Below are positions 54,503-54,579 of a stretch of 64,000 nucleotides of DNA, piece after piece. A program made the position numbers and the translations under genes. Numbering within the stretch: position 1 is the stretch's first letter; every line of letters begins with the position of its first letter. Location: assembly GCA_004297935.1 (NCBI GenBank), contig SCRE01000005.1, positions 1-64,000 on the forward strand, read 5' to 3'. This stretch comes from Microbacteriaceae bacterium (GTDB lineage Bacteria > Actinomycetota > Actinomycetes > Actinomycetales > Microbacteriaceae). The notes beneath the pieces are model-generated. The model was not told where the DNA came from and ran no database searches. It saw nothing but the letters and a program-made list of their open reading frames with translations.

Positions 54503-54579
54503 CGATATTCCCGCTTCTGCGGGATGATCCAAGTAGTCGACTCGGCTTGGTGTGCTCCTCGGTTGTCCGGGGATATTGT
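54503..54579 (+). ncRNA. Candidate mini-CRISPR / CreR-like Cascade guide RNA: pseudorepeat 1, about 20-nt spacer, pseudorepeat 2
   Basis: Pseudorepeat 1 (ends 54530): CCCGC-TTCT-GCGGG hairpin followed by ATGATCC, identical to the 3' handle of the array repeat. Pseudorepeat 2 (54552-54579): GTGCTCCTCGGTTGTCCGGGGATATTGT, 17/28 identical to GTGCTCCCCGCGCAGGCGGGGATGATCC, with a re-paired stem CCTCGG/CCGGGG. Confidence 0.75.

Follow-up and report, generated by a model that had tools for sequence, protein, structure and literature searches.

Positions 54503-54579 of the 64,000-nt stretch of DNA analyzed here (the window), which comes from a Microbacteriaceae actinobacterium, very probably encode a CreR: a 49-nt crRNA-like RNA processed by Cas6e, which would guide Cascade to repress the cse1-cas2 operon without cutting it. 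The observations behind this reading are the anatomy of the element, a target with both a PAM and a seed match, the uniqueness of that target in the genome, and the fact that some 15 unrelated guides share its design.

The type I-E locus and its surroundings

The cas gene set is a complete type I-E set: cas3 (50548-53490, plus strand, with cas3 core and HD matches), then cse1 (casA; 54677-56311, plus strand, TIGR02547) as the first gene of the operon, followed by cse2, cas7, cas5, cas6e, cas1 and cas2 (56308-60810, plus strand, NCBIfam matches). As expected for the host of a CreR, the effector and Cas6 are intact, with cse1, cse2, cas7, cas5 and cas6e all exceeding the curated cut-offs. A gene for an IclR-type regulator (49705-50460) is located just upstream of cas3. 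The main CRISPR array (60854-64000, minus strand) continues past the window and comprises 177 repeats up to contig position 71622; its guides are 32 nt long, with one additional handle-adjacent base that is usually C. It is transcribed towards the cas genes, the leader being at the end far from cas2, and one of its spacers, CACCCCGCTGATCGGCAAGGAATCAGCGGGGTG (61976-62008, minus strand), is itself a perfect 12-bp hairpin.

cas3 and cse1 are separated by hicAB and the CreR region. The hicA gene (PF07927 match) is on the minus strand, starts at 54387 and adjoins the element. Beside it an open reading frame at 53816-54214 (minus strand) is HicB-like in place and size; Pfam and NCBIfam searches with it gave no match. 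At 54380-54450, upstream of hicA, the palindromes GTTTAGctcCTAAAC and ATTTAGctgaCTAAAT are probable operators of the toxin-antitoxin pair.

Anatomy of the element

The element is present on the plus strand between hicA and cse1. A sequence-only reading of the window had drawn attention to two sequences there that resemble the array repeat GTGCTCCCCGCGCAGGCGGGGATGATCC, the reference for the identity counts below, and both pseudorepeats were confirmed from the sequence. Pseudorepeat 1 (psiR1; 54503-54531, plus strand) is identical to the array repeat at 12 of 28 positions in ungapped register. It contains the hairpin CCCGC-TTCT-GCGGG at 54510-54523 (stem CCCGC/GCGGG, loop TTCT), followed by the 8-nt crRNA 5′ handle ATGATCCA at 54524-54531, in which 54524-54530 is the exact ATGATCC of the array. 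The hairpin core and the exact handle up to 54530 are thus as first read, and the hairpin is stable (fold z = -5.3; 0/200 shuffles as good). Cas6e cleavage is predicted before 54524.

Pseudorepeat 2 (psiR2; 54552-54579, plus strand) has the 17/28 identity attributed to it and retains GTGCTCC and GGGGAT; its hairpin at 54556-54573 has changed arms forming a 7-bp stem, and its 3′ part is decayed. The changes in the arms had been taken as compensatory. The pairing does hold (fold z = -2.2, with 5 of 200 shuffles as good), but compensatory change is something that a single sequence cannot prove. Here cleavage by Cas6e is predicted after 54572. Between the pseudorepeats is the 20-nt guide AGTAGTCGACTCGGCTTGGT (54532-54551, plus strand), whose match is in the region where cse1 starts. 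If the element is processed as ordinary type I-E repeats are, the mature CreR would correspond to 54524-54572 of the plus strand and consist of 8 nt of handle, 20 nt of guide and 21 nt of 3′ handle, 49 nt overall. The 28-nt units are 21 nt apart in the element (1 nt of handle and 20 nt of guide) and 33 nt apart in the array (1 + 32), which bears out the short spacing noted earlier (about 20 nt compared with 32-33 nt).

The surviving parts are those of a mature crRNA, namely the 5′ handle of psiR1 and the GTGCTCC and hairpin of psiR2, and the parts discarded in processing are decayed. Asymmetric decay of this sort has been described for creA genes (PMC8501985). An ordinary array would have near-identical repeats and uniform 32-nt spacers, whereas the values here are 12/28, 17/28 and a 20-nt guide; the element has instead the make-up of a CreR mini-CRISPR, adjoining the cas operon with two degenerate repeats in which the crRNA handles are retained. 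An Rfam search of the element gave no match, and a scan for sigma-70 and terminator consensus sequences gave nothing, with no clear promoter for the element's RNA. Directly after psiR2, upstream of the cse1 promoter, a perfect inverted repeat TTGTGAcccTCACAA is present at 54577-54591; it is possibly the operator of some regulator.

The likeness to the array repeat is not significant by itself, because 71 sites in the 60.8 kb of the window outside the array, psiR2 among them, reach at least 17/28. The heptamer ATGATCC occurs 16 times in the same 60.8 kb; at three of these sites, psiR1 included, it is preceded by a hairpin whose stem has 5 bp or more. The ordered pair ATGATCC-N12-30-GTGCTCC was observed once (0.04 expected). 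Repeat likeness alone is therefore weak and not beyond chance, and what raises the element well above chance is the match between the guide and its target.

The guide matches the start of the cse1 operon

The target of the guide, which was not seen in the sequence-only reading, is the real evidence. It consists of the PAM AAT (54642-54644) and the protospacer AGTAGaCGACTtGG, together 54642-54658 on the plus strand. The guide AGTAG-T-CGACT-C-GG corresponds to AGTAG-A-CGACT-T-GG at 54645-54658, so that positions 1-5, 7-11 and 13-14 match and positions 6 and 12 are the sole mismatches among the first 14. Cascade flips out the bases at both of these. Neither position takes part in type I crRNA-DNA pairing (PMC8501985). 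When guide and region were shuffled, none of 20,000 shuffles reached this score behind an AA PAM. Genome-wide, the 14-nt pattern occurs three times: in the guide itself, at the cse1 site and at one site with the PAM GGT. The combination of PAM and seed is consequently found only once, at 54642-54658, in the 3.95-Mb genome.

Between the protospacer and the TATAAT upstream of it (54632-54637, plus strand), the probable -10 box of the cse1 operon, are 7 nt; on its other side 10 nt separate it from the ribosome-binding GGAG (54669-54672) and 18 nt from cse1. Judging from these signals, transcription of cse1 is expected to start at about 54644, and the target would cover the start point; the promoter is our own reading, since the scan for a full sigma-70 consensus for cse1 detected the -10 box only. 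Immediately after the target come the ribosome-binding site and cse1, with no room for a toxin gene. In keeping with a CreR, the guide is thus partly complementary, next to a PAM, to the leader/promoter of its own cas operon, and no toxin is coupled under the target promoter. Comparison of the array spacers with phages gave no match, and the PAM was therefore deduced from the spacer-adjacent base and from related targets. The first spacer-adjacent base of the array is mostly C and related targets mostly have AAC, so AAT is not the commonest PAM deduced in this way. The retention of mature-crRNA parts, together with the PAM-flanked seed match at the cse1 start, supports the earlier suggestion of a regulatory RNA that resembles a crRNA and would be processed and loaded into Cascade.

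The same design in other actinobacterial cse1 loci

Actinobacterial cse1 loci from the family, the order, the class and some genera were gathered, those of relatives by a cse1 alignment search, and 900 bp upstream of the gene was examined. At each hairpin followed by a crRNA-type handle we scored whether the guide agreed at every one of positions 1-5 and 7-11 with a site of that region lying behind an AAN PAM. Over 176 loci this was the case for 9 of 159 hairpin-and-handle sites, versus 102 of 317,291 other positions (Fisher 8e-18, a rough guide and no exact probability, as the sequences are partly related). With 217 loci and a slightly looser handle the counts were 28/568 and 133/391,096, respectively. 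A target was found for 26 of the 102 two-hairpin units, and the 24 distinct seeds of these 26 form 15 groups.

Matching at individual positions was counted by leaving one position out, so that there was no selection on the position being counted. Among the targeted units, positions 1-5 and 7-11 match in 26/26 to 26/30 cases (87-100%); over the 26 units position 6 matches in 6, position 12 in 5 and position 13 in 14, and matching beyond position 13 is near background. The third base of the PAM is C in 13 units, G in 7 and T in 6. Common design rules are therefore shared by about 15 unrelated guides of related systems. Survey matches in L117, L122, L178 and L219 (minus strand) were judged to be false positives lacking a second pseudorepeat, and a plus-strand match in L219 with the PAM AGC was left out of the count.

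In most relatives from the family cas3 abuts cse1, and an element of this kind would not fit between them. A cse1 query of the genome and metagenome collections returned no close relative of this locus, and the sole other genome of the genus is without cse1. The closest parallel is a locus of the same family, L051, which has the 20-nt guide GTTTGaCACAGaA and the target AAC-GTTTGtCACAGgA with mismatches at positions 6 and 12; its element is located directly between cas3 and cse1, without hicAB. In loci L249-L257 (genus g117, probably Streptomyces) the guide and the target change together, as in the pairs GTCTAgTGCTT/GTCTAcTGCTT, TGTCAgTTCTC/TGTCAaTTCTC and GTTTAgTGCTT/GTTTAaTGCTT. The related mini-CRISPRs of L249-L258 are on the minus strand, 110-260 bp upstream of cse1, with guides of 14 nt, except for 26 nt in L258; this family could be CreR or CreTA-like, given that other sequence may intervene between target and cse1. 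In L070 the region with a 32-nt-guide mini-CRISPR, some 20-620 bp upstream of cse1, is flanked on either side by a partial copy of the cas3 3′-end and looks like an insertion by recombination.

Could the element be a functionless remnant of an ordinary array, its match to the cse1 leader being accidental or the relic of a self-derived spacer? Both repeats are degenerate, their likeness to the array repeat is within chance, and ordinary arrays do occur upstream of cse1 in some actinobacterial loci (L075 and L093). Decay would, however, have had to spare exactly the parts of a mature crRNA and leave a guide of 20 rather than 32 nt, and a target with a PAM and Cascade-type mismatches, reached by 0/20,000 shuffles, would be a coincidence, as would the recurrence of the arrangement far above background in other loci. 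We consider this explanation improbable.

Still less probable is an antisense RNA that pairs with the 5′ leader of the cse1 mRNA and controls its translation or stability without Cascade. CCAAGUAGUCGACU can indeed pair with AGUAGACGACUUGG at 12 of 14 positions; such an inverted match to the leader is present because the guide contains the palindrome AGTCGACT. In the other elements, however, the direct match beats the antisense one, the best antisense matches being 7-10/14, a level given by searching many offsets, and antisense pairing would not account for the handle, the PAM or the freedom of positions 6 and 12.

A CreA-type antitoxin (CreTA or CrePA), whose guide would repress a toxin such as the adjacent HicA and render the cell Cascade-dependent, is the least credible alternative: a hicA toxin gene does adjoin the element and in CrePA a guide of this type is paired with a protein toxin (PMC12737573), but we rejected a hic promoter target for want of an acceptable site (the best hic-side sites match just 7/10 seed positions), the true target precedes not a toxin gene but cse1, running straight into its ribosome-binding site, and the element of L051, from the same family, has no hicAB at all. 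Nothing in these results ties the element to the HicAB pair pointed out earlier.

Guide lengths and Cascade size

The guides of the 26 targeted units are 14 (8 units), 20 (8), 21 (5), 26 (1), 32 (3) and 33 nt (1) long. All 26 lengths equal 6N-4 or one more, which is true of only 27 of the 66 comparison units without a target. In type I-F1 the guide length is L = 6N-4 for N Cas7 subunits, 20 nt corresponding to four Cas7, and truncation leaves the complexes unable to trigger Cas2/3 (PMC7296934). With a 24-bp spacer in a type I-B system the target gene was repressed, and interference and primed adaptation were gone (PMC10989794). In the E. coli type I-E system 5 bp are enough for binding, and interference and priming need more than 18 bp (PMC5904413). 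By this analogy the guide lengths predict Cascades with 3-6 Cas7 subunits.

It is conceivable, and we put it forward tentatively, that actinobacterial type I-E CreRs are a class of natural guides of mini-Cascades, their lengths (14, 20, 26 or 32 nt) stepped by Cas7. If so, the 20-nt guide of the element would be one of them, cells would assemble repressor Cascades whose physical length does not allow them to engage Cas3, and it is the stepwise design that would be as yet unreported. Shortened-spacer Cascades of E. coli can reportedly still interfere, going by the title of Kuznedelov et al. 2016, so limited pairing rather than guide length may be the main safeguard.

Proposed mechanism

The steps below, from transcription and cleavage by Cas6e through loading and subunit number to repression and its release, are inferred from the features described. 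Transcription would proceed across 54503-54579, and cleavage by Cas6e at both hairpins would produce the 49-nt CreR, which would be loaded into a probably shortened Cascade (four Cas7 instead of six). This complex would bind the AAT-flanked site at 54642-54664, at the expected cse1 transcription start, and block transcription of the cse1-cas2 operon; the guide-target pairing would be too short to activate Cas3, and the chromosome would stay uncut. In E. coli type I-E, short seed pairing likewise binds without cutting (PMC5904413). For CreA, the rule that positions 1-5 and 7-11 count and 6 and 12 are irrelevant has been demonstrated by mutation (PMC8501985). Binding need not mean repression, because off-target binding of Cascade in E. 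coli left local expression unchanged, according to a section title of PMC5904413.

The loop would be self-limiting: whenever ordinary crRNAs occupy Cascade, or an anti-CRISPR protein disables it, cas expression would rise. crRNAs from the very long array would compete for Cascade and so relieve repression, and relief by crRNA competition is the published CreR model as recounted in PMC12737573.

What was a speculative repeat likeness thereby becomes a concrete circuit, open to testing, for an actinobacterial type I-E system, with one RNA, one site and named bases. The survey can be taken as evolution's readout of which base pairs are required by Cascade: those at 1-5 and 7-11 are, those at 6 and 12 are not. 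It further suggests that short Cascades are made by cells as built-in repressors. This has relevance to the tuning of CRISPR expression, to the response to anti-CRISPRs and to safe type I-E gene repression with cas3 retained.

Comparison with known systems

The principle of CreR, type I-E included, is already known, and the element is a clear further case. CRISPR-derived regulatory RNAs are reportedly the subject of Shmakov et al. 2023 (NAR) as well. The sequence-only reading had cited the CreR/CreA precedent as first described in haloarchaeal type I-B loci; the class extends beyond these, type I-E CreRs being among those of Liu et al. 2023, as cited in PMC13131331. According to the citations of that work (Cell Host Microbe 31:1481, doi 10.1016/j.chom.2023.08.005) in PMC13131331, PMC12737573 and PMC12948488, the first and last of which give this point, types I-B, I-E and V-A are autorepressed by CreRs that are complementary to part of the promoter sequence only imperfectly. 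As far as these citing papers describe CreR, both it and the element are crRNA-like RNAs from a mini-CRISPR beside the cas genes, partly complementary to a cas promoter; the element differs in belonging to a Microbacteriaceae actinobacterium and in its 20-nt guide. The stepwise guide lengths and the number of actinobacterial cases are perhaps additions to the published record, in which Liu et al. 2023 is represented here by the papers citing it.

CreA of CreTA likewise has a 5′ handle of 8 nt as well as a 3′ handle, which come from two divergent pseudorepeats; it pairs through positions 1-5 and 7-11 with 6 and 12 irrelevant, and guides Cascade to repress a promoter (PMC8501985). In contrast, the target here is the cas operon and not a toxin RNA, and the system is type I-E (Cas6e, AAN PAM) rather than haloarchaeal type I-B. 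In engineered short-spacer crRNAs of types I-B, I-F1 and I-E, 6-nt guide steps set the number of Cas7 subunits, and short guides allow binding or repression in which Cas3 does not act (PMC10989794, PMC7296934). Those crRNAs were designed, whereas the 14-, 20- and 26-nt guides described here are natural.
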